This document shows positions 33,773-64,000 of a stretch of 64,000 bases of DNA, piece after piece. This DNA is from Ascochyta rabiei (lineage: Eukaryota > Ascomycota > Dothideomycetes > Pleosporales > Didymellaceae). Numbering within the stretch: position 1 is the first letter of the stretch; each line of letters opens with the position of its first letter. A program made the position numbers and the translations under genes. Location: positions 1,159,079 to 1,223,078 of the forward strand of contig NC_082425.1 of NCBI RefSeq assembly GCF_004011695.2. Reading direction: 5' to 3'. The notes beneath the pieces are model-generated. The model was given only the letters and a program-made list of their open reading frames with translations, was not told where the DNA came from and did not search any database.

Positions 33773-33804
<32 letters not shown>

Positions 33805-37262: not shown

Positions 37263-37749
37263 TTAGACGCTAAGCTGCGTTCTAAACACTCTGCTACATA
37301 CTACTAAGTAATAAGAAGTAACTACTAACCTACAGCATATTAACAGGGAAACTAAGAAAATACTAGACTGTTAAAGAGAAGGAATAAGTGCAGTAAGAGT
37401 ATAGCTGCACCTAGTAATTACATAAGAAAAGGTAGAAAGACTCTAAGGCTATAATTAGCTTCTAAGTCTACGTACTGCAGCCGTCAGCTCTATGCATACT
37501 AATGCCGCTGCTAGAGCCTCTAGCTATAGAGAATAGCATAGAGGCTGTTTAAGCTATTTAGCAACCTAGTACAGGTAATAAATAACCTGCTAAAGACGCT
37601 AGCTAGACAGTTTAACGCTGTAGTAGACGCCTAAAGTACTAGAGCGTAGAAGCAGCAGTAATAGTAAAGAAAGAAAGTAACTACTAACGTTACCTACGCT
37701 GACGCAACCTACGCTAACAGGAGAAACTAGGCCACTCTGCGTCTGTCTA

Positions 37750-42996: not shown

Positions 42997-44480
42997 TTAC
43001 GCAACATTAACAGGGTGAAATAACTTAAGCAGCGTTATCTGCCGCAACGCTACAGCTAACGCTAGCCTGTCCTGTGTTGCTTGGGACTAGGAAACCTTAA
43101 TCTGTCTGTCTAGCTTGTTGTCCTTACCGTCTGCTACCTCCTCTACTTTATAGCTAGTGGCTAGAGCCTATACCTCTATGCTTAACATCTCTTTCCTACT
43201 AATAGGCCCTCCAGCAATTACATCTGCTCTAAGCTAGTTCTTAAGCGCCTTGCTTGCAGTATACAGATTAGAACGCTTATACTTTATAAGGTTAATAAAG
43301 ACGTCTAGCTAGCCTACGCAAAGCACCTGCTCTAGCTACTAGTAGAACACCTACTTGTAGGGTATCAGCAGCAGACTGCCCTAGCCTAGGCCTTCTACTA
43401 CAGTGTGCCAGCGTATTACTTACTTTAGCTAATTACAAAAGACCTTATTGTCTCTCTTTATTAGGGTAGAGTAGACTAACTTTATTAGCGCTGTAATAGC
43501 TTCTATGTAGACTAGCCCTCTCCTGTAGAAGTTACGCGTCTAGTTGTTACTTACTATAAAGTTACGCTACTAGATTTACTTAATCTTCTAGGTGTAGGCC
43601 TTACCTAGCTGCACAAATGCCTACTGCGATTTAATATAGACAGCTGCTAGCTCTGTCTTATAGCGCCTATACATGTCCTAGGCAACATAGAAGGCGCAAT
43701 TAGAGCTGCGTAACGTGCTCTATGCGTTCTTATAAAGCTGTAACTACTAGGTCTGTATAGCTTAGTCGCCTATACCAGCCTAGAAAGGCATTCCTGTTTC
43801 CTGCTATGTCTGTAGGAAGTGTGCTGCGTAGCAGCGTAAGGACTAGTTACTAAGGGCCCTAGCCTTCTCTAGTATTGCACAAGCTATAAAGTAGGGCGTA
43901 GGGAAAGCTATATAGAAGTTACTGCTGTTAGTAACAACTTACTTAGTAATCTAAGCAATAGTTGCTACGTTCTTTTAGGCAATTAAGTTATAAGCAGCCT
44001 GCTCCTGCAATAGCGCCCTATTACCTAGGACCTAGAGGCTAAGGTCTATGCGTCTCTTTGCATAAGACACCTCCCTCTTCTAGTTACGCTAGAGCTTAGC
44101 GTAGCAGTTTTTGTTAGAGATTGTTATAACTAGCTTAGGCGCTTGTCCCTCTATATGTATGGCTAGTGTTAGAGCTAGTATCTTACTAGAGGCTCTAGCG
44201 CAAACACGCTTAGGAGGGGAGTCTAGCAACTCTAAGGCAACGCGCTGCCTTTTCCTATGCTGTAAGCAACTAGACAGTTGCGCAGATAGAGGTTCCTCTA
44301 CCTTACTGTCTAAAGGGGCTGCGCTTGCAGACGCAGGCACTAGGACAGCCTGCGCCTTCTATCCCTTCTCTGTAACAGACTACGCCGCGCGTATAAGGCA
44401 GCCCTATCCTAGGGCTGCAACTGGAGGCAGTACTTCCTCCAGTTTTCAACGTACTAGGATATTCATTTTCCCTGCGTAGA
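42997..44480 (-). pseudogene. Partner gene, copy 1 (RIP-degraded homologue of 51894-53618)
   Basis: Minus strand. It is alignable along its length with partner copy 2: AGGCCCTCCAGCAATTACATC (43210) matches 52105; GACAGCTGCTAGCTCTG (43640) matches 52538; GCAGCCTGCTC (43992) matches 52900; the Pro/Lys/Arg-rich SPPKRVCAR stretch (about 44200) matches PKRART in copy 2. Many TAG/TAA stops replace Trp and Gln. The C-terminus still reads RQITLLKLFHPV before the stop at 42999..42997, against RQLTLLELFHPV in copy 2. The 5' end near 44480 is approximate. It is divergent from helicase copy 1, just as copy 2 is from helicase copy 2. Confidence 0.75.
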
Positions 44481-44925: not shown

Positions 44926-45990
44926 ATGACAGAGGATAGCGTTGCAGGCGAGTATTTTGAGCATTTGGTTGAGTACGCGTTGGCAGTTTGCAAAGAGTGT
45001 AGACACGGCGTTTTGCCCAGCCAGGTCAGGAGTCATTTGCAGCGTCATCGTGTCAGCCAGAAGCAAGCCGAGTTAGTAGCAGAAGACGTGAGCAGTTGGG
45101 CCGGATTGATTCAATATGCAGGAGAGTTAGAAGTGCCGAGCCAGGCCATTCAGCCTATACATCAGTTGCCGGTTTACGCGGACAGGTTGATGTGTCAGGT
45201 AGACGCAGACCATTGCTGTCAGATATTCCGAAGCGCAGAGGCAATAAGGAAGCATTAGCAGAAGACCCACAGTTGGTCAGTAGCAGGAAAAGGAGGTCGT
45301 CTGAGCTGGGTAGAGAAGGCAGAGATACAAGAGCGCATCAGCAAGGGTTGTAAGAGAATCTATTGCCAGCAGTTGTTAGTCCAGGGCCTGGGGTCGCAGT
45401 ATTTTGAGGTTGAGCAGCCCGACGACAATGGCCCAGACGTCGTGCCAGATGGCGACGCGGCATGGGCGCAGGTGGGCGAGCAGATGGCTAAGGCGTGGGC
45501 CAACGTCGAGATGCGGACGCAAAACACCATCCAGGAGGGAGAGAAAGACGAGGTAAACCCGTGGTTGGAGCGGACGCAGTGGTTGCCGTATTTAGTGGGC
45601 ATGGAGCGACCCGAGCTGATGGCGTGCATCGAGGAACCCGTGGCAGAGCCCGATCCCAGGCAGGAGCAGCAGGCCGAGCCCGTAGAGGCAGCAATGTGGG
45701 CGGCGATGGAGGGATTGGCGCGGTTCAGTCAAGCGTCCGTCATCCACCGCATCGGCGTGTTCGTGCGGCTGGAGGCGATCCGGACAGAGAAGCACCAGAC
45801 GCGATTCCAGCCGTTGCAGCCGTACATGGACGAGAAGTCGATTGGCGACCACACGCGGCCGTGGCAGCAGATATTGATGTTTTTCGCACGAACGCAACAG
45901 GAGCACGTGTGGAAGAGTCCAGCGTATCGTTTCACCCGCCAGCAGCGAGAGGCATGGGAGGCGTTGGTCGAGGCGGCGGAGAGAAGCGTC

Positions 45991-46022
<32 letters not shown>

Positions 46023-49000
46023 GGAAGAGGTGGAGGACCAAGACGAAGAAGACGAGACCATGGCAGACGTCGACGAAGCCATCGACGAGATGGAGACAGA
46101 CACAGCCGAGCCCACCACCAACGCCATCAGTGAGCCAGAGAGGTTGTCGAGCATCCAGAAGGCGTGTTTGGAGTTTTGCATTGCGTTGTTAAGCCAGTTG
46201 ATCACGCGCAAGGAGTACGACAGCCCGTTAGTGTGCGCATTGGCCGTGTTGGGCGTGAAGGAGAATGGATGGAAAGGTGCCGAGCAGTATCCGCCCGTTT
46301 TGTCGGCCGTTATCAAGGTGGCGCGGTTCATGGTCGTGCAGCAGGCGTTAGAGTTGTTAGGCCCGTTGGATGATAAAGACGAGTTCGACAGTGACAGCGC
46401 GTACGAGAGCGACGACAGCAGCAACCTGCCCTAACGCTGGCGCAAAGGATGTTTACAGTTCGTGCAGGAGATAATAGACCGGTTCATGGTGCGCGGCAGC
46501 CACAGCCTGATGCAGTGGATGTTGGATTTGCGGACGTACGGGTTGAAGATCCATTACAACACCACGTCACGCAGCCACGTCAAGTGGGTTAGCCGGGACA
46601 AGTTGTTGTACAAGAGTTTGCAGTTCAGCATAGCGCAGTTCCGCGGCATAGTGCATGGATTGGCGACAGAGAGTCAACAGTTGTTAATGGACGAGTTGTT
46701 GTTTGGCAACAGCAAGGTCGCCGAGCCCATCCCCAGTGTGCCGTGGGACGGTTTGCGCGACAACCCGACCGACGAGCGGCCCGGGTGGAATTTTTTAAAG
46801 GACCACCGCACGCGCATGCCCGTCAATAGAGAGAGGTGGTTGTTCCAGCGGGTAGGGCAGGACGCCGCCATCAGGGACCGATTCATGCAGCGGGGCACCC
46901 GTTCGGGCATCAACACGCAGGAGGTGGAGCGGTACATGGATCGAGTAGTTGCGTTCCGGGAGAAGTTGATTGTGTTGATGCACATGGCGGGCGGACAGCC
47001 AGCGAGAGCCCCAGAGATCATGAGCATCCGGCACAGCAACACAGTCAAGGGCGGGCACCGCAACATATTCATCGAGGACGGCATGGTCGTGTTCGTGACG
47101 CGGTACCACAAGGGATACAGCGTGAGCAGCAACGTCAAGATCATCCACCGGTATTTGCCGCGCGAGGTGGGCGAGCTGTTGGTGTATTACATGTGGTTGG
47201 TGTTGCCGTTCTAGCAGCGGTTGGAGGTGATGGTGTGGGAGAAGGAGGTGATATCGTCGCACATGTGGCCGGCAGACCCAAGCGGCCGCAAGTGGACGAG
47301 CGACCGGTTCCGAGAGACGTTGAAGCGCGAGAGCAGGATCGGATTAGGATTGGAACTGACGATTCCAGCGTATCGCGAGATCGCCATTGGCATCAGCCGG
47401 CGGTTTTTACGCGGGTCCACCGCGTTTCGAGCAGACGAGGGAGACGAGAACGAGGAGTGGAACGAGGAGAACACGTGGTCAGCCATTGCGGACATGCAGG
47501 CAGGGCACATGGTGCACATCGCGGGGATGATATACGCACGAGGCATCATGGAACAGGCAGGGGCAGTAGCAGACAAGAGGCAGCAGTTCCGTATGTCGAG
47601 CACGGATTGGCACCGGTTTTTGGGGTTCCAAGCAGGCGTAGACGACGACGACGGGTGCAAGAAGCGCAAGCGGGCCCCGTTCGAGAGCGAGGCAGACGAG
47701 GCGAGGATCGATCGCTGGGGCCGGTTGAGGAAGATGGACACAGCCGCGCAGATGCAGCAGATGATGGGCAAGGCGGCTGAGTTTCGCGGCGTGCAGAAAG
47801 AGGCCATCGACGCCATCGTTGCCGGCAAGAGTCACGTCGTGGCAGTGATGCCGACTGGGGCAGGCAAAAGCATGTTGTTTATGTTACCAGCATGGGCCGA
47901 GCAGGGCGGTACAACGGTGGTCGTGGTGCCGTTGATCGCGTTGCGGGGAGACATGATGCGGCGATGCAGGAAGTTAGGCATATCGTGCGCCAAGTGGGAC
48001 AGCCGCCGCCTGCCAGACGCAGCCGCAGTCGTATTGGTGACGCCCGAGTCAGCGGTTGGGGAAGAGTTCGCGACGTTTTTGAACCGGTTGCGGGCAACGC
48101 GACAGCTGGACCGGATTGTGATTGACAAGTGTCACATCGTATTGAACCGCTGGTACGATTTCCGCAAGGAGATGCAGAAGTTAGGCAAGTTGGCATCCGC
48201 CGAGACGCAGATGGTGATGTTGACAGCAACATTGCCGCCGAGCGAGGAAGACGAGTTGTTCCGGCGGATGTACGTCGAGCGAGATCAGGTCGATTTGTTC
48301 CGAGCCGAAACCGCAAGGACGAACGTAGCGTACCGCGTGATCAGGGTAGGCAAGGCGGCGAAGAAGAAGGAGGTGGAGGAAATGGTGTTAGGCATGGTGC
48401 AGCAGAAGTTGCGCAAGCACAAGACAGGGAAAGTCGTGGTGTACAGCAATTCGGTGCCGAAGGTCAAGGAGTTGGCGAAGAACTTAGGTTGTCACGCATA
48501 CCATCACAAGGCCGTAGGCAAAGCAAGCATGTTAGAAGAATTTGCCGCAGGCAAAAAGCGTATGATTGTAGCAACAAGCGCGTTAGGGATGGGCGTTGAC
48601 ATACCTGACATCCGGTGCATCATACACATCAATTGGCCGTTCACCGTGTTGGATTACGCACAGGAAAGCGGGCGTGCAGGACGCGACGGGTTGCGCAGCG
48701 AGGCGATCATGATCGTGCAGGAAGGCGAGCAGCGGGCAGCCGAGGACAAGCAGGCGGAGGTGGAACAGCAGTTGGTGCGAGCGTACGTGGAAGGCATAGA
48801 CGAGACAGCAACGTGCAGGCGGGTGGTGTTGGACGGGTATTTGGACAGGCGAGAGAAAGAGCGGGTGGTGTGCGAAGAGGGAGAGGAGAAGTGCGACGTG
48901 TGCAGAGGAGCAGACGGTGAGGAAGAAGACGAGGAGAAGACGGAGGAGGAGATGGAGGAGGAAGAGAGCGAGGAGGACGAGGGAGGCAGCAGTAACGTAG

Positions 49001-49611
49001 AGGATACCGACACGGTCGAGGCAGAGCGAGAGGAGGCACGGCGGGTGTTTGAGCAGCAGCAGCAAGCACGACGCGGCCCGCGACAGACGTTGATACAGCA
49101 GCGGCAGCAAGAGTTTGCCGACGTGGAGTGGTTGCGCAGGCAGTTGGCGTGGTGGACGAAGCGGTGTGGGATATGCGAGGTGGCGGGCGACAGACAGAGC
49201 GAGCACGACGTGCGGCGGTGTTGGAGGCCGGAGAGCCGGCAGGCGAAGGAGATGATCAAGGCAGTAGAGGAGAAGATGCGGTTCGAGGAGTATTCGGGTT
49301 GTTTTTGGTGTGGAGTACCGCAGGAGGTATGCAACTGATAGGAAGACAACGGACGCGGACGGTATCAGAGAGCAGACGGAAGGGATTGTCAATACTGAGG
49401 GGTGTTAGTAGGAGGGTTGTTAGGGTTGGTGTACGGGGGCGGGGAGGGCGTGACAGAGCGGTGGATTGGCCGGTTAGTAGAGCAGGGCGTCGATGCGAGT
49501 TCGATAGAGGGATTGGTTAGGCATTTAGGGCGCAAACAGGCGTTGGAGTGCGTTGAAAGCAACAGGTTGGTAGGGGAGTTTTGTTGGATCACGCGGTTAA
49601 TAGCAGAGTAG
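44926..49611 (+). pseudogene. Telomere-linked RecQ-type helicase with recombinase-like domain, copy 1 (six in-frame stops)
   Basis: One frame of 1,562 codons from ATG 44926 to TAG 49609-49611, no frameshift, no intron needed. In-frame stops: TAG 45256, TAA 46432, TAG 47212, TGA 49336, TAG 49339, TGA 49396; each can arise from Trp, Gln or Arg codons by one transition. Domains: N-terminal zinc-finger-like CKECRHGVLPSQVRSHLQRH (DUF3505-like); Glu-rich acidic linker near 45990-46060; middle domain with recombinase-like residues Arg 47005, Lys 47110, Arg 47374, His 47506, Tyr 47533; RecQ helicase with PTGAGKS at 47851, DKCH at 48124 (Glu of DEAH replaced by Lys), SALGMGVDIPDIRCIIH and QESGRAGRDG; Cys-rich RecQ-zinc-like end (GEEKCDVC) and CFWCGVPQEVCN. 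Leucine is nearly always TTG/TTA and CpT is very rare. Transcribed toward the telomere. Confidence 0.85.
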
Positions 49612-51065
49612 AGGAGGTAGCAGGCGTAGTGGTAGCCAATAAAAGAGTTTTTCGTTCACAATTTGTAGAAGCAGTGCAGCCGAGTTGGGTTCAGGCCAGG
49701 ACGTAGGTTAAGAGCTGTAACCCGTAGCAGAGGGTAGAACGCAGGTACAAAGCCCCAGAAGCCAAGGAGGTTCAGTTAGCAGCAGACAGCAGGGACCATG
49801 TCATCAAGCCGTTAGGGAGGGCAAGAAGAGGAGTAGAAAGTAGAGGGTGAGCAGAGGGCCCGCAAGGTGTTATAGCGTGAAGTTGGGTTCAGGGCCAGAC
49901 GCAAGTTAGGGTTAGGATTATCCGTATTTAAGAAACGTAGACCGCAACCTGTTAGATTTAAGAAAAGATTAAAAGATAAAGAAAAGTCAAGTTTAAGAAG
50001 TTTAAGAAGAGAGAAAGATAAGTAGAAGAAAGACAAGTAGAGTAAAGAGAATAAAAAAGAGAGTTAAAGTTAAAAGAGCAACAAAAGCAAGTAAGTAGGA
50101 GAAGGAAAAGTTAAAAAAAGACCGTTACAGGTACAAAGAAAAGAAAGAAAAGGCAAGTAAAGAAAGAAGAAAGAAGAAAAGAAAACATAAGTAGTTTAGT
50201 AGTTTAGTAGTTTAACAAAATTATTAAAGAGAAGAAAGAAGAAGTAGAAGACAAAGTGCATAGAGCATAAAGAAAGTAGTAGAAAAGAAAGAAAGTAGTA
50301 GAAAAGAAAGAAAGTAGTAGAGAAGAAAGAAGAAGAAGAAGAAAACAGAGTGTATAGAATTTAAAGAAAGTATTAGAGAAGAGTTAGCAAGTACATATTA
50401 AGAGAAAAGATTTTAAAAAAGAACAGAGATTAAGTTAGAAGAAACAGATAAAGAGAAAGAAAAAAGAAAATAAAAGTACATAGATAAATAGAAGAAATAA
50501 GTAGGTTAGTAGTTGTAAAGAAAATTAAGAGAAGAGAGAAAAGATAAAGAGTTAAGATAGAAGAGTTAAAATAGTAATTTATCAAGAGAAGAGAGAGTAA
50601 AAAGAAAGTAAAAAGAGATGTTGGATAATTTAAAAAGCGTTTACAGAAACAAGTAGAGATGCAAAAGGTAAAAAAGATTAGAGAAGAGATTTATAGAGAA
50701 GACAAGGGGAAAAAGAAAGTAAGTAGAAAGAAAGGAGAAGATAGAAATAGAAAAGAGAATATATAGAGATAGTTAGAGTAATAAGATTAGAAGAGAGTAG
50801 AGGTGAAAGGTGTTAAGACAAATGTTATAGGTATAAGAAAAGAAGAAAAAAGAGATAACAAAGGTAAGTAAAGAAGTTTAGTAAAAAAAAAAGAAAAAAG
50901 GAAGAGTAGAGATAAAAGAAATAGTAGGGTGGTAAAAAAGAACAGGTATAAGAAAAAAAAGAAAGGTTAAAAGAAAAATAGTAAAAGTGTTTTAGGGAGA
51001 AGAAAGTAAAGAGTATTATTAGACAGGAGAAAGAAAAGACAGGGTAAGAGTTTTTTACGTAGAGA

Positions 51066-51208
51066 TAGGGTTAGGGTTTTATAGGAAATAATAGGGTTAG
51101 GGTTTTAAAGAAAAGACAGGGTTAGGGTTTTAAAGAAAAGACAGGGTTAGGGTTTTAAAGAAGAGACAGGGTTAGAGTTTTAAAGAAAAGACAGAGTAAG
51201 AGTTTTAG
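51066..51208 (+). repeat. 25-bp repeat containing interstitial telomeric motif
   Basis: GGGTTAGGGTTTTAAAGAAAAGACA repeats with exact 25-bp spacing (51094, 51119, 51144, 51169, then degenerate at 51194); a related unit starts at 51067. Each carries GGGTTAGGG in the same orientation as the true telomere. Confidence 0.93.
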
Positions 51209-51340
51209 ATTTAGAGAAAAAAAGAGAGAAAGAAAGTAACAGAGTGGTTAAATATAGATAAGATAGATACGAAGAAGTTAAAGTAGAGAAAGAAAAAGAA
51301 AAGAAATCAAAGCAGCGTTAAGTATAGGTGAAGAGAAAAT

Positions 51341-51466
51341 GTGTAAACAAGGAAGGAGGTGTAAATAAGAAAGGAGGTGTAAACAAGGAAGGAGGTGTAA
51401 ACAAGGAAGGAGGTGTAAACAGGTAAGAAGGTGTAGACAAGGAAGGAGGTGTAAACAGGTAAGAAA
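51341..51466 (+). repeat. 18-bp minisatellite, seven units
   Basis: GTGTAAACAAGGAAGGAG repeated seven times without gaps (51341, 51359, 51377, 51395, 51413, 51431, 51449), with a few substitutions. Confidence 0.95.
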
Positions 51467-51520
51467 GTAGAAGAGAAGAAGAAGGGTAGACAGTAGGCGA
51501 GTAGAGTGTTAAAGAAGTTC

Positions 51521-51549
51521 AGTTAGTTAGTTAGTTAGTTAGTTAGTTA
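51521..51549. repeat. (AGTT)n microsatellite
   Basis: Seven AGTT units in a row. Confidence 0.95.
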
Positions 51550-51560
51550 CAAGTAGGGGA

Positions 51561-51893
51561 GGTGGGTGGGGAGCCTCCCAGTGATTATACGAACAAAGAC
51601 AGTGTATTTGTTCGCTTTGCCTATGTAAATTTTAGCGTGAGCACAGACACTCGACTGTATTTGTTCGCTTTTTCAGCGTGAATTTGTTCGCTGTTCCTGA
51701 AGTCAAATATTGCTGCAACGATTGCGGAACGTGTACAAAGTGCGTCCCAATTGTATGTTGAATTTCTAGAAGAATCGAGCATACGGTACGTGAGTGGAAT
51801 ATAGTAGATGTTTTAATATTAATGTTCGCGATGTTGTAGGGCAGTATCGATAAGGTATGTAGCACAATGTTCAGAGTTGAGCGCAGGTAACAT
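51561..51893. other. Left flank of module 2 with a small inverted repeat
   Basis: Ordinary composition resumes abruptly after the purine tract. CGAACAAA (51590-51597) and TTTGTTCG (51607-51614) form a perfect 8-bp inverted repeat with a 9-base loop, and TATTTGTTCGCTTT recurs at about 51659. This may be the left edge of the second module or the 3' region of partner copy 2; no gene seen. Confidence 0.4.
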
Positions 51894-53618
51894 CTACTCT
51901 ACAGGATGGAACAATTCAAGCAAAGTTAGCTGACGCAACCGCGGAGCTGGCGTAGGACTCTTCGGCGAAGCATGACTTTGCTCTCTGGTGCTGTCGTCAA
52001 CGCTGTTGTCAGTTTCGTCGTCTTCGCTGTCTTGAATCTCTTCCACCTCGTAGATGGTTGCTGGCGCCTCCGCCTCAATGCTCAGCGTTTTCTTCTCGTT
52101 GATGGGCCCGCCAGCAATTCCCTCTGGCCCTAACCAGTTCTTAAGTGCCTTGCTAGCTGCACAAATGTCTGGACACTCCTTCTTAAGTAGCTTAATCTAG
52201 ACATGCAGCTGGCCTACACGGAGGGTGCGTTCTATCCAGCGATTCGCAATCTCGTCGTGTGGTATTAGGGTCAGAATGCCCCAGCCTAGCTCCTGACTAA
52301 TGGAGTACCAGCGCATGGCTTGGCCTAACCGTCGTCTAAACACCTGCTTGTCCTTCTCAGTAGCGTTGGGACTAACTAACTCTACTAGCGCTGCAACTGC
52401 CTCTGTGCGGATCTGTCCCTTTCCGTATCGATTTCGCGTCCTGTCGTTGCTAGATACAAAGTCGTTATGCCGGATCTGCGCTATCTTGTTGGAGTATGCT
52501 TGACCTAGGAGAGCTGACGCCCATCGAGACTCGATATGGACAGCTGCTAGCTCTGCTTCGTAACGTGTGCACATGTTCCAGGCAAAGCAGAAATCCCTGT
52601 CAGCATCGTTGCGCACACTCAGCAGCTGCAAGCGCTTAGCTCCCGCACCGGTCCTGCTCTGGCTGCCAGCGAGCTCGCCGCCACCTCTGAAGGGTGAGCC
52701 ACGTTCTCGCCAAGCCTGCAGGAACTGGGCAGCGTGGTACCGAGAGGACTGGTTTCCAAGCACGCGCGCTTTCTCTAGAAGGGTGCAGGCCGTGAGGTAG
52801 GGAGTTTGGGTGGAGCTGTAGAAGTCCGTGTCATCGGAGACTGGCTGCTTGATGATCCAGGCGACAACGGACTCGTCCTTTTGCACAATAGAGGTGTAGG
52901 CAGCCTGCTCTGGAAGAGGAGCCTTATCGCCAGGTGCTACCAGACCAAGGGCAAGCCGCTTCTTCGCACGCGAAGTGGCGAGTGTCCTGCTGCGTTTTTG
53001 CTCCGCACGGCGGTTGTTGTTGGAGATGGTAGTGATGTGCAGAGGGGAGTCTTTCAGCTGCTCATCTGGTTCGCTAGGCTGTGACAGCTGAGGGCTGGCT
53101 GGATGTGTCTCATCGGTGGTTGTTCGAGCGCGCTTTGGTGTAGGGGCCGGCGCAGATAGGTGTGGCCGCTTCTTTTGTTGCGGGGGTGGAGCGGAGGCCT
53201 GTTGTGAAGGGGAAGCAAAGGGCTTCTGCGCAGACGGCGGCTCTTCCATCCCGTCCTCCGCAAGCGACTCGGCCGCGCAGACCAGACGATCCCAGATATT
53301 GTCAGGCAGGACGTCGTCGGCGAGCGTCTCGCGCAGAAGCCAGATCGCTGACAAGACGGAGTGGGCAATGAAGACGGGCTTGCAGACGCTGGCATCGTCA
53401 CGGGTGGGGATCAGCCATCCTGCGCTGTGCGGACGAGCACCTGGATCACGCTGCGAGCGTGAGATGGTCGCTCGGCAGAAGAAGAGCTTCTCGTAGTCCT
53501 TATTCGGCGGCTCGTACGCGTAGTTGCGAACGAAGTCAGCTTCGCTGGCCAGAGGAAAGCTCCGACGACCGCCATCAAACCGCTCTGCGGCGCTGTCTAA
53601 TGCTGCCAACCAGTGCAT
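51894..53618 (-). pseudogene. Partner gene, copy 2: uncharacterised subtelomeric protein divergent from the helicase
   Basis: Minus strand, 575 codons from ATG 53618 to TAG 51896..51894, with one in-frame TAG at 52199..52197. The frame is open to 53726 but only through GTG, and a TGA lies just upstream. I recognise no named family. Visible parts: N-terminal globular part (MHWLAALDSAAERFDGG, WLIPTRDD, AIWLLRETLADD); a Pro/Lys/Arg-rich linker with PKRART that could be a nuclear localisation signal; a middle conserved part (AWIIKQPVSDDTDFY, FCFAWNMCTRYEAELAAVHI); a helix-rich part (RRRLGQAMRWYSISQELGWG); and, beyond the stop, an acidic EVEEIQDSEDDE stretch and the tail RQLTLLELFHPVE. The tail fits Qxx[LIM]xx-hydrophobic-aromatic, a PCNA-binding (PIP) pattern. 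The stop can come from CAG or TGG by one transition. Confidence 0.7.
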
Positions 53619-53915
53619 TATCGACTTGTGTACTGCGAATGAGGTTGCGAGCGGAAGTTTGGACGAAGGTTGTGCGGAAAGGGGGTTGGGTGTTGTTGAG
53701 GTTCTGACGCGGTCACACCGCGGCACCGAAAGTCAGGCCGCGCACGGATGTACCACGACGCCCTCACTAACCAGCGTTAGCGGAGCTGGGAGCGCAATCA
53801 AACCAAAAGCAAGATCGATACACAGTCTGTCGATCAATATGCTGGGGGATAGCAAACACTAGGCTAACGGACGTGTTGCATAGCGCCCACTTGTGTCCCT
53901 TCTGCTCCTTACACC
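53619..53915. promoter_or_regulatory. Divergent promoter of module 2
   Basis: Under 300 bp between the partner ATG (53618) and helicase ATG (53916), so both genes must share this control region. It contains CGATCGATAC-like and GATCGATACACAGTCTGTCGATC dyad symmetry near 53812-53838. No TATA box is obvious. Confidence 0.4.
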
Positions 53916-56900
53916 ATGGAACTATTTGCGCAGCTGTTTGAACACTGGCCTGAACTTTGAGTCGTAGTTTGTAAACCATGTGCCACTGCTATTCTACTAG
54001 CGCAGATCGTTACGCACCTCAAAGAGCGCCATCCCAAGGTCACAGTCGCTACGCGCAAGAGCCTGGCGGCAGCTGTACGCGCGCTACCAAACCTTGCGTG
54101 GAGTCCAGGAGACGTGCGTGTACCAAGGCCGGCTAAGGAGCCCATCTTTGGTCTGAAAAGCCGAGAAGACGGGCTGGTATGCTTGTTGGAGCGTTGTTGG
54201 TATACCTGCATCTCGCTGCAGGGCATGCAGAAACATTGCAAGGATAAGCATGGCTGGGTGAACAAACAAAAGCGAGGGGGAGATATAAGGCAAAAGAGCA
54301 AGCACTCGCGCAACCAAGTATGGCGAGACAGCCAATCCTGCCAGCGCTTGTTCAGAGCTGTTGGCTGGCCGGCGTATGTTGCAGTCGAGACGAGCGTTGG
54401 AGCTGCGACTCTAGCAGACATCTCCCAGAGAGTGAAGGCAGATCGCCAGCATCAGCGAGAAGAGCGTGAGGCAGCAGCAGCGCAGGATAAGATTAAAGAG
54501 GGCATCCGTTCGCAGGCTGATCCGTGGCTAGAGCTCACAGAATGGGTCCCGCACCTACAAGGTATCCCAAGGGCGGCACTTCTGCGCGCTAAACAGCTAG
54601 CTGGTAGGGAGGTAGACGCGCGTGGGAAGGAAGAAGTAGCGTTTGACAACACGGGCTTACGCGATGTTTGCAAAGCTATAGAGCGGCTGATACAAAAAGC
54701 GTTCAATAGCAGCCAAGCTGAGGTTGTCGGCAGACTCGCACTGGAGATTATCGAGCGACGTGAGGCGGGCGCAGAATCGAACGAGCGGCCCTTCTACGCT
54801 AGGCATCGAGTCGGTACGATCAAGAAGTACAGCCAGAAGCTGGTGAGCATCCTCTGCTACCTGTGGCGCACATATGACCAGGTCGAGCGGCCGCTATACA
54901 AACTTACCAGCACGCAAGACGCCCTCTTGGTGTCACTCCAGCAAATAGCCCGCTCAGACGACGCTGCGAAGAAAGAGAAACTGGAAGAGCGATGCCTGCG
55001 CTTTTGGATCGCCTTGCTCAACCACAGCCTGACTGGCGACGAGCACGAGAGCGCACTGCTGAGCGGAGTGGCTGTCCTCGGCCTCAAGCCTGATCACCAT
55101 GGCGGTGGGTGGGTTCCGGCGCACGAGTTCTCGCCAACGCTGTCTGCTTTAATTACTACCTTGAAAGCGCTCGTAGTGCATCATGCCCGCTGCCAGCGAG
55201 ATAAAGCGCTTTAGAAAGACCCTTGTACAGCACCTACTGCGTATGAGCTAGTTAAAGACATGTCTGAACGGTTTATGACGCTGTCCGACTTCAAAGGCAC
55301 ACCCAGTCCTATGAATCGAATGCTCCGCTTGCGTACGCTAGCTAGAACACAGGCAAAGCAACGTAATACTCCCGGTATCGTGTCGTGGGATGGAGATCGG
55401 CTTCTCATTGACAAGCAGAGCTTTTCGCTAGCCGATCTCCGGTCGATGGTGAAGGGACTCTGCGAGACGGTGCGGTTGCAGCTATTCAAGGACGTCCTAC
55501 TCTTGGATCTAGACGAAAGGGGTTGCGTGCGACCCAGGACCACCCCGCTTCCAGAGGTGTCCGTGGACAAACTCGTCGATCAGCCAGCCGAGCTGGCTAC
55601 GGGCTGGAGCTTTCTGAAGCACCCCGACAACCAGCTAGATAGATGGCAAGACTGGCTTCTAGACCGGGTGTTGGACGAGGCTCCGCTAAGGGAGAGATTC
55701 ATTCGTGGGATAGATAGCACACAATGGCCGGAACGGACGCTATGGCGCGATGACGCTGTAGCTAGGTACATGAAAGGAGTGCGTCGGTTTAAAGAAGGCC
55801 TCTTCACGCTTGTTCACATGTCTGGCGGCGGGCCTGGTCGCGGGACAGAGATTACCTCGATACAGTGCGAGAACAGTGCAGACGGGGTAGGGTATCGGGG
55901 GGTGTTTGTAGAGGGTGGCCTGGTATCCTTCACCACCACGTACCACAAGGGGTATAGCTTCAGCAAGCGTGTCAAGACGATCCACCGCTATGTTCCCCGG
56001 GAGGTGGGTGAGCTGGTGGTGTACTTCCTCAGGCTCGGTCGACCGTTCATAGATGATCTCCAGATGCTGCACAATGGCGTTGCCCGCCCTACCGCTTTCA
56101 TCTGGGAGCCAGAGCCGGAGGAGCAGTGGGGCGACGAGAGCGATAGCGAAGAGAGCGACGACAGAGACGAGTACGGCGAAGCCGACCGTAAGAAGGCACG
56201 ATCCGCTAACCCAGACGGGTACTGGGGCACCGATCGCATACGCCGTGTCCTGCGCAAGCAGACCTTTCAGTACATGAACACCGCTCTTGGCACCCGCGCC
56301 TGGCGGCATGCCTACCCAGCCATCCACCGAGAGCTGGCAAGAGATGGACAAGCACGCGACTGGTTGGAAGTGCTCTACTGGAACAAAGCGCCGGCGAAGA
56401 GCAACGCGCAAGCGTTGCAGTCCGGCCACAGCCTTAAAACAGAGGAGGGCAACTACGGCCGCTCCATGATGGAGTCTCCCTTTCAGACCATGGCCAAGCG
56501 GGAGGAGTTCCGGCGGGTGAGCATGGACTGGCATCGCGTGCTGGAGTTTGCATCCGCCTGGGAGGACGGCCGTATGCACCCCGGTGTTCGCGCGGAGATG
56601 GTAGCGCAGCAAGAGAAGCAGGCGCTCCAGCGCTGGTCGTTGCTCGCGATGGTGGACCTCAAGGCAGAGTTCAGGCGACTCGCTGGACGGCCGGACGCCG
56701 AGTATCGTGGCAAGCAAGAAGAAAGCCTCGAGGCTGTAATGCAGCGACGGCTGCGCGTGCTAGTTGTTATGGCTACCGGCACCAGCAAGAGTATGCTGTT
56801 CATGCTGCCCGCGTCCGTCTCGCCAGGCGGCGTCTCCGTGGTCGTGGCTCCGTTGAATGCCTTGCGAGACGATCTGCAAGATCGCTGCGACCAGCTCGGC

Positions 56901-58522
56901 ATCCCCTGCGCGAAGTGGGATGGAAGAAGACCGCCGTACTGGGCTCGTATTGTGCTGGTGACGCCTGAGAGCGCAGTCACGAAGGCGTTCGGCAGGTTTA
57001 TTAACGAAAAGCGCATGCTCTATCAGCTAGATCGTATCGTGATAGACGAGTGCCACGTGCTGCTGGAGTCGACACAGGACTGGCGGCCAGACCTCCTCAA
57101 GATGGTGGAGATGACGGAGAAGGGCACACAGGTTGTCTACCTGACTGCAACCTTGCCGCCTACGCTGCAGCCCGCCTTCTTGCACACCGCAGGGCTCGAT
57201 GCCTAGACCGTAACCATATGCCGCGATGAACGCACCACGCGAACGAACATTGCGTACCAGGTGCTAGAGTACACACGTGGCACGCTAGAAAAAGTACTTA
57301 TTGAGCTTGTGGCTGCGAAGAGGAGTAGGTACGGACCCAAGGCGCAGATCATCGTCTATTATCCAACTGTGGACGAGACGAAACGGCTTGCGAAGCTTCT
57401 GCAGTGCTCTGCATACTACCGTCAGATGGGCTCAGACGAGGAAAAGGCACGCATGGTGCGAAGCTTCACCCTGGGCATAGAGAAGCTTTGTACAGCCACG
57501 AACATGCTGGGTCTTGGGCTCGACGCTGCAGGCGTCCGGGTGGTGATCCACGTTGCCATGTGTCCCCTGCTGCTCCAATATGTGCAAGAGAGCGGCCGGG
57601 CAGGACGAACGGGGCTCGACAGCGAGTCTATTATTATGAGAGCGTGCTATGTAACGAAAGAGGGGAGGGTAGAGAAGGCGCTCGGCTACAAGCTGGAGCG
57701 ACCTGCAAAGGAGTTTATGACAGTCGAATCCTGTCAGCGAATCGCGATAGACAAGCACATAGACGGCAGACAGAACAGGCAGCAATGCGAGATGGGAGAG
57801 TCGAAGTGTGATCTATGCGAGCGACACCCCGGTGGTACCAAGCGACAAGCCGTCGAAGAAGAGCAGGAAGAGCCAGAGGAGACGCAGGCCGACACCGCGG
57901 CAGTAGCAGCAGAGGAGCAGCGCAGATGTATAGAGCGAGCTATGGTCGTTAAAGAGCAGAGGGTTGAGATCCAGCAACAGCGAAGGACGGAACAAAAAGT
58001 ATATGACCTGGAGCGGCTAGAGCAGCACTTCCAGCGCTGGAGCAATGCGTGCGCCATCTGCATGGCCACTCAGGCTGACCCGGCGCGCCACGACTGGAAG
58101 GACTGTTCAAAGGCCAGCGGAGCGCAGATGACATTAATGGAGTCTAAGGTGAAATCTATGCACTAAGTGAAGTAGGAGAAGTATGCGCGGTGTTTTTACT
58201 GCTGGGCGCCGCCATCTGCAACAAGTGGGAGGAAACAAGCATACAGGGTGCGTTTAAGACACAAGGGATGCATGTGCCTTGCCAGTACGATGGAGTGCTC
58301 CAGAGAGCAGTAGCTGCGCTGCTTGCCTGCCAGCCACTGATGTGCACGCCATGGCTGGAGCAGCAGATGCAAGACGCCGCGATTGTGCACGGTAGCGATG
58401 AGCTCCGGCTTTACAAGTGGCTCGGATTAAAGATCAAGATGGGCCAGAGAGACGCGAGCCAGATGTGTCGTTTCCTATATGCTTGGGAGGAGGGGCATGT
58501 GCAGTCGTATTTAGCAGACTAG
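53916..58522 (+). pseudogene. Telomere-linked RecQ-type helicase with recombinase-like domain, copy 2
   Basis: From ATG 53916 in one frame to about 58195, then shifted by one frameshift to TAG 58520-58522. In-frame stops: TGA 53958, TAG 55212, TAG 57204, TAA 58164, TAG 58173; the first three fit C-to-T change of Arg or Gln codons. Domains: two zinc-finger-like segments (CKPCATAILLAQIVTHLKERH, and CWYTCISLQGMQKHCKDKH); middle domain with recombinase-like Arg 55839 (GRGTEI), Lys 55947, Arg 56304, His 56427 (SGHSLK) and Tyr 56454 (NYGR); RecQ helicase with Walker A TGTSKS at 56775-56792 (Gly to Ser), intact DECH at 57045, and QESGRAGRTG; RecQ-zinc-like GESKCDLC; terminal segment with CQYDGVLQRAV. 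CpT is normal, unlike copy 1. It faces the telomere and is divergent from partner copy 2. Confidence 0.85.
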
Positions 58523-58689
58523 AAAGAATGTGTTTGATATAACCGTAACCCGAAACCTTAGGTCAGGAGAAGTCAGGAGAAACGTGCTGTAGGCTGACTT
58601 GCGACTGCACGGTGATTACAAGTCAGAAAGTGCAAAACAGCCAAATAGCAACACAGACACTTCAGAGACGTAGAAAGAAACGCCTAGAG
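58523..58689. other. Spacer after helicase copy 2
   Basis: Short non-coding stretch with a direct AGTCAGGAGAA duplication at about 58561-58582. Nothing else. Confidence 0.4.
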
Positions 58690-59440
58690 AAGGGCCACTA
58701 ACCAAAGTAGTCCCCACAACCCAAGTGATACCCGCCAACCCGAGTAATACCCGCCAACCCAAGTAGAGCCCCCCAACCTAAGTAGAGCCCCTAACCCATG
58801 CGGATCCCCTAACTCAAGTAGAACCCCCAACCCAAGTAGAGCCCCCAACCCATGCGGATCCCCCAACCCAAGTAGAGCCCCCGACGCCAAGTAGAGCCCC
58901 AACCCAAGTAGAGCCCCCGACCCAAGTAGAGCCCCCAACCCATGCGGATCCCCCAATCCACGTAGTCAGCACCAACCCGCATAGTCAGCATTAACCCGCG
59001 TAGTAAGCATCAACCCGCGCAGTAAGCATCAATCCACATAGTCACATGGTCAGCATCAAGCCGCGTAGTCAGCACAAACCCGCGTGGTTCCCTGAGTAGT
59101 TCCACAAGTAGTGCGTCAACCCAAGTGGTTGCCCCACCCGAGTGGCACGTCCAACCCGAGTGGGTCCCCCAATCCAAGTGGTTCCCAAGTAGTTCCCCAC
59201 GTAGTTCCCTAAGTAGCGCGCCAAGTAGTGCGCCACCCTAAGTGGTCCGAAAGTAGTCCCCCAAAGTGGCCCGAAAGTGGTCCCTGCAAGCCAAGGGAGT
59301 CCACATCAGTGCCCCCAAGTAGTAAGAGCCAATCATTTAAGAAGAGCCCCCGATCCAGGAAGAGCCCACAATCCGGAGAGAGCAGACTAAACCAAGTGAG
59401 TCCCCATCCAAAAGCAGCCGTGCGTATTGAAGAAAGTGAG
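58690..59440. repeat. Degenerate C-rich minisatellite
   Basis: About 750 bp of roughly 20-bp units such as CCCCCAACCCAAGTAGAGCC and CCCAACCCATGCGGATCCCC, grading into AACCCGCGTAGTCAGCATC and then CCAAGTAGTTCCCC variants. Gly/Leu-repeat open frames on the minus strand are by-products of the repeat. In contrast to the DNA on its right, C is abundant on the plus strand. Confidence 0.9.
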
Positions 59441-59863
59441 AGTCAGGACAAAGTAAATTTAGATAGATAGTAGAGTAGTTGAGAAAGACATGCGCAATAG
59501 GTAGAAGAGCCAGCAGGATGGTGGATGGGAGAGGTACAAGAAGTTGTTTGTGCAAGAGGGCGTCAATCGCGTTGATCGCGCGAATTTGGATTAGGCGGGT
59601 TGGTTGCTTTGTAAATTGGGTATAAGAATGAATGGTAGAGGGAAAGGGCATTTGAACAGGGTATCAGGTGGATTAGAAAGATGGAACGGGATAAAAATGA
59701 CGTGGAGCAAGGTGTTTTGGGCGTTTACATAGTATTGTCACAAGATAGAACAGTAGTTAGGGGAAGTTTGGCAAATCCGATTGTGGTGCCGCAGCCCAGA
59801 AAGGCATTCCTGAACCTGTAGATGCCGTAGTGCGTGAGAGAGGGGCGGGCGGAGGGCCCGTCA
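59441..59863. other. Spacer before the subterminal block
   Basis: About 420 bp with no recognised gene or repeat. Confidence 0.4.
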
Positions 59864-62800
59864 GGTGTCACAAAGCAGTTGGGCAGGGCGGTAGAGGGTA
59901 AAGGAGAAAGAGGGGAGGTGGGTGGGGCCGTGATAAGGCATCACGAGCAAAGGATGAAGGAGAGAAGAGAGTAGAATAAGGGTGGGCGGTGGGCCCGTGA
60001 TAAGGTATCACGGGAGAGGGGGGTAGAGGGTTGGGCGGGGGGCCCGTGGATGTGCCCCCGGAGCGATGCGGTTAAGAGTGAAGGAGGGGAGGTGTTTAAG
60101 ACCGTGAAGCGGGATAGAGAAGAGTAGCAGGTAAGCAGGGTGAAGAAGAGAAAGTGGGTGGGCGGTAGGCCCGTCAAGTGTTACACAAGAGTGAAGAGGC
60201 AGTTGTAGAGATAGATAAGCGGTACAGAGAGCGGTTTTAAGGCGAATTTTTTTCAGCAACGTAATAGTAGTAGCAATCAGAGTAGCGTTGTTCATGCAGC
60301 AGTATAACAGCGCGCAAGTAGCAGAGATAGGGTTAAGAGATGTATAAAAGAAGAAAAGGAAAGAAAAGAGAAATGAAAGAATTGTTAAGAGAAAAGAATA
60401 GTAGAGAGGATAAAGTAAGAAGAGAAGTAGAAAAAGGTAAAAAATTGTTAAAAGAGTGTTAGTAGGATAGAAAAGATAGTTAAATGTAGTATTTAATAAA
60501 GAGAGAGTGTAAAAGTATTAGAAAAGATATTTAAAGTGATTAAGATGTAAAGATAGTAAATGAAGAAAAAAGAGTAGAAAATAGAGAAAGATGAAAAGAA
60601 AGAATTAAAAAGAAGAGAAGAAAGTAGAAGAAGAAGTTAGTTTATTAAAAGATGTATGAAATAAAAGAGTAGTTAAATAGAAGGTGAAAAGAAAAGAAAG
60701 ATTAGAAAGAGTAAAAGTTGAGAAAAGAAAGAAGGTTGAAGAGAAAAAGTGTAGAAAGAGGAAGGAAAGGAAAAAGTAAAGTAAAAAGGAAAGTTGTAGT
60801 TTGTTAGAAATTTAAAAAGGTTGAGGAAGAAGTAAATAAGGAGAAAAGAAGAGAAAAGGTATAAAAAGAAGTAAAAAGTAGAGAGTATATGTTTAAAGAG
60901 TTTATAAAGAGTTTAGGGAAAGAGATAAGAGATAGAAAGAAGAGAGAGATTGAGAAGAAAATTTAGAAAAGTAGAAAGAATAAGAATAGAGTAAAGAAAG
61001 TAAGAGGTAAGGATAGAAGAAAGAAGTAGAAGAAAAGGAAAAGAAGTTAAAAGAGGTTAGTTAAGAAGAAAATAATGTTTAAGAAAGAAAGATAAGAGAG
61101 TAAAGTAGGTTAAGAAGAGAGTAAGAATAATAGGTAGGTGTTAGTATAGAAAGAGAGTATAAGTTTAGAAAAGAAAAGTTAGTAGGGTAAGAAGTAAAAG
61201 TAGTGTAAATAAAAGAAAAGAAGAGAGAAGAAGGTTAAAAAGAGAGATAAAAGTAGAAGGTTTTAAAAAATAAAGAAAGTAAGTTGTAAGAAAGAGAGTA
61301 AGAATAAAAGAGAAGAGTAGGGGTTAAGTGTAGGAGAAGAAGTAAGAGTAAGAGAAAGAAGGTGTAAGGATAAAGGTGGGAATATTAGTATAGGAAGAAA
61401 GTGTAATTTTAGAGAGAAAAGTAAAAAAAAATTAAGTTAGTAGAGTAAAAGATAGAGTAAAGAGTAAATATAGGTGTAAAGAGAGAAGGAAGAAAGTTAA
61501 GGTGTTAGAAAAGAGAGTAGTAGAGAAAAGTAAGTGGAAAAGATGAGTAGAAAAGATAAGAAGAAGAGAGTAAGTATTAGGAGTAAAAAATTAGAGAGAG
61601 AAGAGAAAGGTAGAAAGAGAATAAGTAAGATAGAGAGAGGGTAAGTGAGAAAGTAAGTGTATGTGTTAGGAAGAAGGTAAGGAATAGAGTGAGAGAAAGT
61701 AGAGAAGAAAGTAATAGTAATAGTTAGGTTTTAGTGTGAGAAGAGAGATAGGGTTTGGAGAAAAGTTAGAAGAGTAAAATTTAAAGTTTTAAAAAAGAGA
61801 GAAGAAGGAGAATAGGAAAAGAAAGAGTAGTAGTTTAAAGAAAGATTATTAAAAAGTAGAGAAGATTAGGAGTAGTAGAGTAAGGAAAGGAAAGGATAAG
61901 GGAAGTAGAAAGGATAAGAAAAGTAGAAAGGATAGAGAAAAGTAGTAAGGATTAGAGAATAGGTATTGTGAGTAGAAGAGTAGAGGGAAGAAAAAGATAA
62001 GAGAAGAAGAAGTAGGAGAGAGTAGAATAAAGAGAAGAGTAAAGTAAGGAAGAGAGTAGAGTAAGGAAGAAGGAGAGAATAAGTGTAAGGGTTAGGGTTT
62101 TAGAGTAAAAAGAGGGTTAGGGTTTTAGTGTAAGAAGAGAGGTTAGGGTTAAAGTAGGAGAGAGTGTGGAAAGAGAAGAGGTAGAGGTAAGAGTGTAAGT
62201 AAAAGTAAGGAGTAAGGTTTAAGTGTAAGAGAAGAGTAGAGGTAGGAAAGAGAGAGTAGAGAAGAGGGTGAAAGTAGAAATAAGTAGAAGTAAAGGTAAG
62301 GGTGAGGGAGAGAAAGTAGGAGGAAAGAAGAATTTAAGAGTAAGAGAGGGTAGAGTGTAAGAGGAAGAGTTAAGGAGAGAAGTAGAGAGTAAAGATTAGA
62401 AGAAGGAAGAAAGTAGGGATAAGGAAGAGAAAGTGTAAAGGTTTTAATGTAAGAATAAAGAAGAGTGTAAGAGTAAGTATAAGGGTTTTAGTGTAGGAAG
62501 AGGGTTGGGGTTTTAAGTAAAAGTAGAAGAAAAGAGAAAGATGTAGTAAGTGGTAGAAAAGAGTAGAAGAAAGAGAAGGAAGAAGTAGAATAAGTTAAAG
62601 AAAAAGTAGTGTTTAAGAGTTAAGAAAGTAGGAAAAAGGAGAAGAAAGTAGAGGTAATAAGTAAAAAGAGAAAAGAAGTAGTAGAAGTAGTAGAAGAGGT
62701 AGTAGTAGAGAAGGAGTTTAGATTGTAAAAGGGTTAGGGTTTTAGTGTAGGAAAAGTGTTAGGGTTTTGGTGTAGGAAGAGTAGGTAAAGGTTGAGGAAA

Positions 62801-63922
62801 AGAAAGGTGAGAAAAGGAAAAAAGAAGAAAGAGAGTTTTGTAGTAAAGTTTTAGAAAAAGAAGGAGAAGGTGAGTGTAGGTTAAAGAAGAAAGTAAGAGG
62901 TGAAAAAAAAGTAAGTAGAAGGAAGTAAGTGTTAGGAGTAAAAAAGTAGAAAGAGAAGGAGAGTTAAGAAGAAGAATTAAGAAGAAGAGAGTAGAAGTGA
63001 AGGTGAAAAAGAGGGAGAAAATGTAGGGTGAGGGAGAAAGAGAGTAAGAGAGTTAAAGAAGAAGAGTGTAAGGGTAAGGGGTAGGGTTAAGTTAGAAAGA
63101 AGAGTTAGAGGAGTTTAAGGGTTGGGGAAAAAAAGGGTAGAAGAGAAGGAGGTGAAAATAGAAGAGAGGGAAGAAAAGTAAAGTAGAGTGTGAAGAAAGT
63201 AAGAAAAAGAAAGTAAGAGTAAAAGTAGTAGTAGAAAGAGAAGTAAGGATAGAAGGAAAAGTAGAAGAAAGAATAGAAAAGAGTAGAGGAAAAGAAAAGA
63301 AAAGGGAAAAAGGGAGTAGAGGTAGAAGTAGTAGTAGTAGAGAAAAGGTTAGGGTTTTAGAGTAAGAAGAGTGTTAGGGTTTTAGTGTTAGAAAAGAGGT
63401 TAGTAGAGAGAAGTAAGTGGAAAGAGTAGGAAAAGAAAAAAAGAAGGAAGGAGGTTTTAGAGTTGTAAAGAAGGAAAAAGAAGGTAAGTGTAAGGTGAAG
63501 AAGAGAGTAAGGAGTTAAAAAGAGGTAGGTAGGAGAAGGTAAGTGTTAAGAGTAAAAAAGAAAAGAGATAAGAAAAAGATAGAGAAAAAGAGTTAAGAAG
63601 AAGGAGTTAAGAAAGAGTAAGAAAAAAAGAGGTTAAGGTGAAAGTAGAAGAGAGTGTAAGTAAGAGTAAGGTTTAGGGTTTTAGTGTATGGAAAGAGGGT
63701 AGGGTAAGAGAAAAGAAGAGAAAGAAGAGAAGAGTAGAGGTAAAGAGAAAGAGTAGAGATGAGTGTAAAAGGAGTAGTAAGTGTAAGTAAAGGTAAGGAA
63801 GAGGGAGGGTTTAGAAGTAGGAGAGGGTGTAAGAGTAAGGGTTAGAAGAAGGAAGAAAGAAAGTAGGAGTAAAGAAGAGAAAGTGTAAGAGTAAGTGTTA
63901 GGGTTTTAGTGTAGGAAGAGGG
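59864..63922 (+). repeat. Subterminal block B, C-free strand adjoining the telomere
   Basis: The first 460 bp has mixed composition with long GC palindromic bits and is the un-RIPped counterpart of 30977-31435. From about 60326 to the end I find no C on the plus strand: only A, G and T, mostly AGAAAG/GTAAG-type purine runs with scattered GGGTTAGGGTTTTAGTGTAAGAAGAG-like units (62088-62150, 62700-62780, 63345-63395, 63900). No coding sequence. The opposite strand therefore contains no G. Confidence 0.92.
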
Positions 63923-64000
63923 TTAGGGTTAGGGTTAGGGTTAGGGTTAGGGTTAGGGTTAGGGTTAGGGTTAGGGTTAGGGTTAGGGTTAGGGTTAGGG
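63923..64000 (+). repeat. Telomere, 13 perfect TTAGGG units
   Basis: TTAGGG repeated 13 times without error to the last base. The G-rich strand runs 5' to 3' to the right, so the chromosome end is at the right of the window. Confidence 0.99.

Follow-up and report, generated by a model that had tools for sequence, protein, structure and literature searches.

Recombinase-like residues and a constant unit start suggest that a telomere-linked helicase of Ascochyta rabiei belongs to a mobile element capping chromosome ends

Introduction

Is the telomere-linked helicase (TLH), a multicopy gene of fungal chromosome ends, only a helicase, or could it also be the enzyme of a mobile element that captures those ends? 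The question is raised by the right-hand terminus of contig NC_082425.1 of the chickpea fungus Ascochyta rabiei, of which the last 64 kb (the window, 64,000 nucleotides), closing with TTAGGG repeats at 63919-64000, were analyzed here. The window holds TLH copies 1 and 2, and an earlier note, made from the sequence alone and without an alignment, had proposed that copy 2 carries a tyrosine-recombinase-like domain upstream of its helicase motifs. We report that this repeated end gene, known as a helicase only, has residues resembling those of DNA cutting-and-joining enzymes and lies in a unit with a constant start, which suggests a chromosome-end-capping mobile element.

Reports of fungal TLHs go back to at least 1998 (PMC5576322), and what these genes do continues to be described as unclear (PMC11893274). 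The telomere-linked RecQ helicases of Magnaporthe, Ustilago and Metarhizium resemble the A. rabiei gene in being telomere-adjacent and multicopy and in having DEAD and Helicase_C domains (PMC11893274, PMC5576322). In Colletotrichum, DUF3505 is found beside a telomere-adjacent helicase, and these helicase/DUF3505 repeats have already been treated as transposable elements (PMC5576322), which provides a precedent for the mobile-element idea. Within the sections consulted of a mainly open-licence literature, we found no description of a recombinase-like active site or of base-exact unit ends in TLHs.

Results

A conserved set of candidate active-site residues precedes the helicase

TLH copy 2 consists of three open pieces parted by stops at 55212-55214 and 57204-57206, and its recombinase-like stretch is open despite the stops on either side.

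53961..55211, + strand: first open reading frame (ORF) piece, with an OrsD (PF12013) N-terminal domain (Pfam E 3.8e-17)
55215..57203, + strand: second ORF piece, with the recombinase-like domain and then the DEAD helicase lobe (PF00270, E 2.2e-15, amino acids 501-651)
55662..56504, + strand: recombinase-like domain, amino acids 150-430 of the second piece, as used for alignments and residue counts
57207..58163, + strand: third ORF piece, with Helicase_C (PF00271, E 4.8e-12)

OrsD was formerly named DUF3505. In another copy, L010, an uninterrupted frame of 1117 amino acids spans OrsD, the recombinase-like stretch and the DEAD lobe, and homologues about 1500 amino acids long were found in the protein search. 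PF00270 was present in 56 and OrsD in 33 of the 63 matches of the first homologue search. The Walker A motif of copy 2 departs from the usual GxGKS form. As part of the overall explanation to which we give somewhat better than even chances, the TLH would be a three-part enzyme with an OrsD-type N-terminal domain, a tyrosine-recombinase/topoisomerase-IB-like domain and a RecQ-type helicase.

The five residues that the earlier note had proposed as catalytic lie in frame within the second piece, and their numbering was verified.

55839..55841, + strand: R209, candidate Arg I, in GRGTEI (205 of 208 homologues, 3 gaps)
55947..55949, + strand: K245, candidate Lys, in YHKGYS (204 of 208 homologues, 4 gaps)
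56304..56306, + strand: R364, candidate Arg II, in RAWRHAYP (201 of 208 homologues, 5 gaps, 2 substitutions)
56427..56429, + strand: H405, His of GH-x8-Y, in GHSLKTEEGNYG (201 of 208 homologues, 5 gaps, 2 substitutions)
56454..56456, + strand: Y414, candidate nucleophile, in GHSLKTEEGNYG (201 of 208 homologues, 5 gaps, 2 substitutions)

Y414 is nine residues past H405, so the GH-x8-Y spacing is as the note had described. All five residues, in the order Arg I, Lys, Arg II, His/Trp, Tyr that is a feature of the tyrosine recombinase superfamily, were present together in 195 of the 208 homologues. The 208 are those listed by three protein searches (63, then 26 new, then 119 new; the third found 308, of which 120 were listed, 119 of them new), each of which was restricted in its scoring to the approximately 8000 candidates with the most words in common. 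With a profile derived mainly from these homologues, the domain is detected, whole or in part, in every one of them. Alignment gaps account for 22 of the 28 single-position exceptions. Nine homologues were gapped at one or more of the five positions, including one (P0063) that also differed at two others, and four were complete but substituted (P0008, R364Q; P0013, H405Y; P0065, Y414C; P0156, H405Y). P0008 (EKO05_0010850) is the TLH protein annotated for the A. rabiei genome, and its Gln at Arg II indicates that this copy is probably inactive at that site. The note had also singled out an Arg-His pair at 56304-56309, of which the arginine, R364, is conserved but H365 occurs in only 58 of the 208.

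The conservation extends to distant members. In an alignment of 56 rows reaching down to 25% identity, R209, E212, K245, R258, R364 and H405 were invariant and Y414 was present in 55. A first alignment contained 45 of the 63 first-search matches with the window and P0003; the 56 rows comprised the window, 30 of these matches and 25 of the 26 new second-search matches. Of the 62 R, K, H or Y residues in amino acids 150-430, 10 reach at least 98% conservation in the 56 rows, and these 10 include all five named residues. The chance of five alignment-free picks falling among them is P = 3.9e-5, or 2.2e-4 when H365 is counted as a failed sixth pick. Two further near-invariant features in the 56 rows had gone unnamed, E212 (R-x-x-E) and R258 with P261 (R-x-V-P). 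An R-x-x-E after Arg I and an R-x-V-P after the Lys stretch are features of tyrosine recombinases, and the XerD sequence shows both. These alignments support the retention of a putative R-K-R-H-Y active-site set across a large fungal family, mostly together with a helicase.

Comparisons with known recombinases

Several results weigh against identifying the domain as a recombinase. The His of the HxxR motif is missing, position 361 being mainly A, Q, S or R in the 208 homologues. Scans of 14 trimmed members against Pfam, NCBIfam and PHROGs returned no annotated recombinase family, and a search of the PDB by sequence profile gave no recombinase. Scoring by hidden Markov model (HMM) did not place 87 recombinases above shuffles, although this scoring was flawed in that missing scores were set to -99 for the recombinases only. 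Using hhalign against about 80 FimB/Xer-type proteins we obtained no match, and TelN, compared with these proteins as a positive control, was missed as well; in a home-made profile-profile alignment the reversed domain reached a z of 1.4 compared with -0.2 for the real domain, and the TelN control again failed. Because TelN, a true member, also failed, both of these comparisons are weak evidence either way. Between the domain and TelN relatives hhalign gave no meaningful sequence similarity, and neither DUF3435 nor GCR1_C was found in the scanned window ORFs or in the 14 members. We abandoned a regular expression for the order of the motifs: its hits comprised 194 of 208 TLHs, only 5 of the 80 bacterial recombinases, and 39 of 4160 shuffles.

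The missing His has counterparts among enzymes of this kind. The telomere resolvase TelA has Tyr where HxxR has His (PMC3558466), and type IB topoisomerases have Lys at that place (PMC2747268). The absence therefore fits cut-and-join chemistry, though not canonical integrases.

The domain might instead have an unrelated fold, for example that of a DNA-binding protein or a nuclease, in which the recombinase pattern is imitated by conserved R, K, R, H and Y residues. This would agree with the lack of profile-level similarity to known recombinases and with the missing HxxR His. However, the order of the residues, the H+9=Y spacing, R-x-x-E and R-x-V-P all fit a recombinase, exactly those positions are near-invariant, and two of the comparison methods also missed a true recombinase pair; we consider an unrelated fold unlikely. 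It is scarcely probable that a recombinase fold was retained solely for DNA binding, like domesticated Crypton domains. Domesticated tyrosine recombinase (YR) domains do exist (PMC3212892), but they lose catalytic residues, whereas here all five are kept in nearly every homologue. Thus, the fusion proposed in the earlier note holds insofar as a conserved residue set accompanies the helicase, whereas no annotated recombinase model matched it and the HxxR His is lacking. We infer a recombinase fold and function for the domain.

TLH units begin at a constant base, and terminal F1 units end in the telomere

Copy 2 lies in a unit of family F1, one of four families (F1 to F4) whose junctions were compared.

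51575..64000, + strand: F1 terminal unit from its inner end to the chromosome end, about 12.4 kb (start of homology in 31 other terminal copies)
51575..51579, + strand: F1 inner terminus, CTCCC (37 junctions)
59864..63918, + strand: telomere-proximal purine-rich, C-poor tract with scattered TTAGGG (sequence composition)
63919..64000, + strand: (TTAGGG)n telomere, contig terminus (repeat reading)

Homology of the 31 other terminal F1 copies begins at query positions 670-677, with its limit at one base, window position 51575. All 37 F1 junctions found could be read; they start with CTCCCA (32), CTCCTA (3), TTCCCA (1) or GTCTTA (1, decayed). The 23 contigs, of which one is possibly mitochondrial, have 46 ends, and F1 occurs at 32 of these (16 left and 16 right), oriented toward the telomere in every case; all 32 ends (the window and 31 of 31 others) close in TTAGGG repeats. 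A RecQ-type helicase gene thus adjoins the telomere at these 32 ends, as the name telomere-linked helicase implies. Between the F1 inner end and the contig end lie 12.2-12.5 kb at 29 of these ends and 11.8, 10.4 and 10.4 kb at the other three. For F1 we found neither a second terminus nor a target duplication, the outer end being the telomere at 32 of 32 terminal copies, and L376, retrieved to see where an interior F1 copy ends on its outer side, had no match in the window. The contig ends read as TTAGGG arrays, fitting ordinary telomeres; a closed hairpin would not show in an assembly.

The other three families behave similarly at their inner ends. Base-exact termini were read for 8 of 8 F2, 15 of 16 F3 and 3 of 5 F4 junctions found, and all 26 start with CTATCC. 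Past this hexamer F2 and F4 are alike and F3 is different. In the window the F2 unit contains TLH copy 1 (45259-49338), a member of a far-diverged family with the same domain and all five residues kept.

44404..44409, + strand: F2 inner terminus, CTATCC (8 junctions, 8 different flanks)
46846..47637, + strand: recombinase-like domain in TLH copy 1 (F2), with one in-frame stop and the five residues kept (sequence E 6e-89)

Copies of F2, F3 and F4 match a copy-1 gene probe spanning the domain, and F4 matches the domain profile (E 4e-48). Of two decayed F3 copies, C5 keeps the five residues, whereas Arg II and His are gone from C4.

Taken together, the four families gave 63 junctions on about 57 flanks, and 61 of the junctions start with CTCCC/CTCCT or CTATCC. 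A 30-nt rule sorted the flanks into 58 groups, two of them near-duplicates (L333, L354). The F1 flanks are different sequences, some of them common to groups. Across the junctions read, the groups with a common flank are L332/L335/L357, L333/L354, L337/L342, L348/L366 and L399/L400. Some flanks are truncated older units, as exemplified by tail tracts in L332, L336, L355 and L358, copy-1-type genes in L339 and L401, and F1-type units in L360 and L361, indicating that new units are stacked on old ends. The window itself contains two such old ends. The tract at 49900-51570, between TLH copies 1 and 2, is telomere-like and purine-rich with 25-nt TTAGGGTTTT repeats, and is an old end carrying the present F1 unit. 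The internal tract at 30981-35120 shows, over the aligned part 30981-34585, 76% identity with the purine-rich tract now next to the telomere (59864-63746) and is an old chromosome end, left-truncated and now about 29 kb inside. The present tract is nearly free of C on the + strand over 60300-63900 (GC skew near 1), and the old internal copy is the same.

Some observations at F1 do not fit a single constant start. Three weak F1 matches (67-70%) start inside the unit, the internal F1 tail of the window is left-truncated at 30981, and four further tail matches were left untraced.

Over a 1.3-kb probe the terminal units show 97-100% identity, and some groups with a common flank represent ordinary end duplication. 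Both could reflect spread solely by homologous or break-induced recombination between chromosome ends, with the helicase incidental. Such recombination should leave flanks of variable length, whereas homology instead ends at one base on about 57 flanks. The constant base on unrelated flanks leads us to reject homologous recombination alone for the founding joins, and as a sole explanation we regard it as very improbable; it is likely for the later homogenization of units.

Empty sites and the joined base

For 24 flanks, a paralogue with an empty site was present among the DNA fetched. Only the best paralogue was used; it was at least 84% identical to the flank, in an alignment required to come within one base of the junction. 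One of these sites lies in the window.

37268..37519, + strand: empty-site paralogue of an F4 junction on another contig (sequence comparison)

The next base of the target was C in 17 of 24 cases compared with 3.7 expected from local composition (P = 5e-13), a count in which the terminal C may be the target's own and the targets of some F3 junctions consist of short repeats. L333 and L354, which are near-duplicates, were both counted; removing one gives 16 of 23. By family, C was the next base in 9 of 9 F2-F4 sites and 8 of 15 F1 sites, and the stretch matching between terminus and target in F2-F4 was 1-5 nt (e.g. CTATC in L403 and CTAT in the F2 of the window). A constant terminus on unrelated flanks, at 63 junctions with 24 empty-site paralogues, is the behavior of a mobile element, here observed at one end only. 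Against a strict rule, the remaining seven F1 empty sites carry T (5) or A (2), indicating that identity with the target is not strict.

The same data are relevant to what we regard as the strongest rival, host end joining at a fixed break point. In this case the recombinase fold would be real, but a constant break or nick at the inner end (caused by a replication-fork stall, a chromatin border or another nuclease) would be joined by host repair using 1-5 nt of microhomology. The shortness of the F2-F4 target matches, the seven F1 junctions lacking a first-base match and the resemblance of the flanks to eroded ends are all consistent with it. On the other hand, ordinary end joining trims both sides, whereas the element side is CTATCC in 26 of 26 F2-F4 junctions, and the same hexamer ends two dissimilar types of inner end, F3 versus F2/F4. 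We consider host repair a distinctly less probable origin of the junctions, to be taken seriously nonetheless. An RNA route may also be considered, in which the constant end would be the 3′ end of an antisense RNA; the seven ORFs scanned in the window included no reverse transcriptase.

Inverted repeats and other features of the window

Near the inner ends of F1 and F2 we observed inverted repeats.

51590..51614, no strand: perfect inverted repeat CGAACAAA-9 nt-TTTGTTCG, 15 nt inside the F1 terminus, with further TTTGTTCG at 51660 and 51683
44419..44444, no strand: perfect inverted repeat AACTGGAGG-8 nt-CCTCCAGTT, 15 nt inside the F2 terminus (repeat search)

Arms of at least 8 bp occurred in 1.0% of 2395 background windows of 70 nt, and the octamer of the F1 repeat has one other occurrence in the 64 kb, at 17148. 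A repeat 15 nt inside the terminus is limited to F1 and F2, a point against a role shared by all families: F3 had no arms of at least 6 bp near its end, and F4 had two 6-bp arms only, elsewhere. For this reason the repeat was set aside as a functional site, and its reading as a recombinase site or integron-style hairpin was not built upon.

The F1 unit contains a further ORF that is a possible second gene of the element.

52197..53732, - strand: divergent ORF of 511 amino acids, with no Pfam family above cut-off, between the F1 inner end and the TLH gene

Subtelomeric satellite arrays are present at 35296-36382 (186-bp units) and 36404-37203 (54-bp units), and paralogues of 36927-37519 flank an F4 unit on contig C9.

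Discussion

We favor, at slightly better than even confidence, a one-ended, telomere-terminated mobile element whose recombinase-helicase joins the inner end to worn or broken chromosome ends. That the TLH is the recombinase-helicase of a mobile element is likely from the residues and the junctions together, with its fold and activity predicted. The earlier suggestion of a mobile element capturing chromosome ends is borne out by the precise inner terminus on many unrelated flanks, but for the joining we infer the part of the TLH enzyme, and the junctions may stem from another factor.

The following steps could produce such units. The recombinase domain would cut at the inner terminus through a 3′-phosphotyrosine, and the telomere-bearing fragment would be passed to a recipient end that is worn back or broken; ligation of a bound end to a foreign 5′-OH is a known ability of topoisomerase IB. 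Alternatively, tips may be exchanged at a matching C by a single crossover with a 1-5 bp overlap. The helicase might open or clear the ends. By either route, chromosome ends would be replaced or capped by the unit, giving a one-ended element.

The unit has partial likenesses to several known systems. In Starships the enzyme gene lies near one end and reads inward. Cryptons and Starships resemble the TLH unit in their tyrosine-recombinase-type residues, in this placement of the enzyme gene and in a short target match. The TLH unit differs from them in the absence of DUF3435 and GCR1_C from the scanned window ORFs and the 14 members, in the fusion of helicase and OrsD, in having a telomere as its outer end and in showing no second terminus. 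Fungal Cryptons have a YR with GCR1_C in a short two-ended element (PMC3212892), whereas in the scanned window ORFs we found no GCR1_C, and no second terminus was seen. The DUF3435 domain that marks Starship captains was not found in these ORFs or in the 14 members. Elsewhere in the genome, DUF3435 (PF11917, Starship captain-like) gave 16 matches, 15 of them with internal stops.

TelA resolvases and type IB topoisomerases share with the TLH domain the R, K, R, H, Y set without the HxxR His, and cut-and-join chemistry (PMC3558466, PMC2747268). The TLH unit differs in that its ends read as TTAGGG arrays rather than hairpins, and in that the fungal proteins carry a helicase. In HeT-A a precise end is joined to the chromosome end. 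HeT-A/TART, MoTeR and FoTeR are alike in this and in their stacks of successive truncated units, whereas the TLH unit differs in lacking a reverse transcriptase among the ORFs scanned. Its TLH gene reads toward the telomere; in FoTeR and MoTeR1 it is the 5′ end that faces the terminus (PMC12857005). Helitrons likewise encode a helicase, and the F1 and F2 units have a hairpin-capable repeat near the end. However, the TLH helicase is of the DEAD/RecQ type, the scanned ORFs contain no Helitron_like_N or PIF1, and the unit lacks the TC...CTRR ends by which Helitrons are defined.

More generally, and more tentatively, at a little under even chances, fungal TLHs may be the transposition enzymes of one-ended DNA elements, 'chromosome-cap transposons', in which a recombinase-helicase cuts a fixed inner terminus and the telomere-bearing tip is transferred to worn or broken chromosome ends, so that a selfish element would re-cap the recipient without telomerase or reverse transcription. 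If the recombinase-helicase reading is true, it would explain why TLH genes lie at so many chromosome ends and why the chromosome ends of fungi change so fast. It would also mean that chromosome ends have a way of healing that uses only DNA, in addition to telomerase and telomeric retrotransposons.

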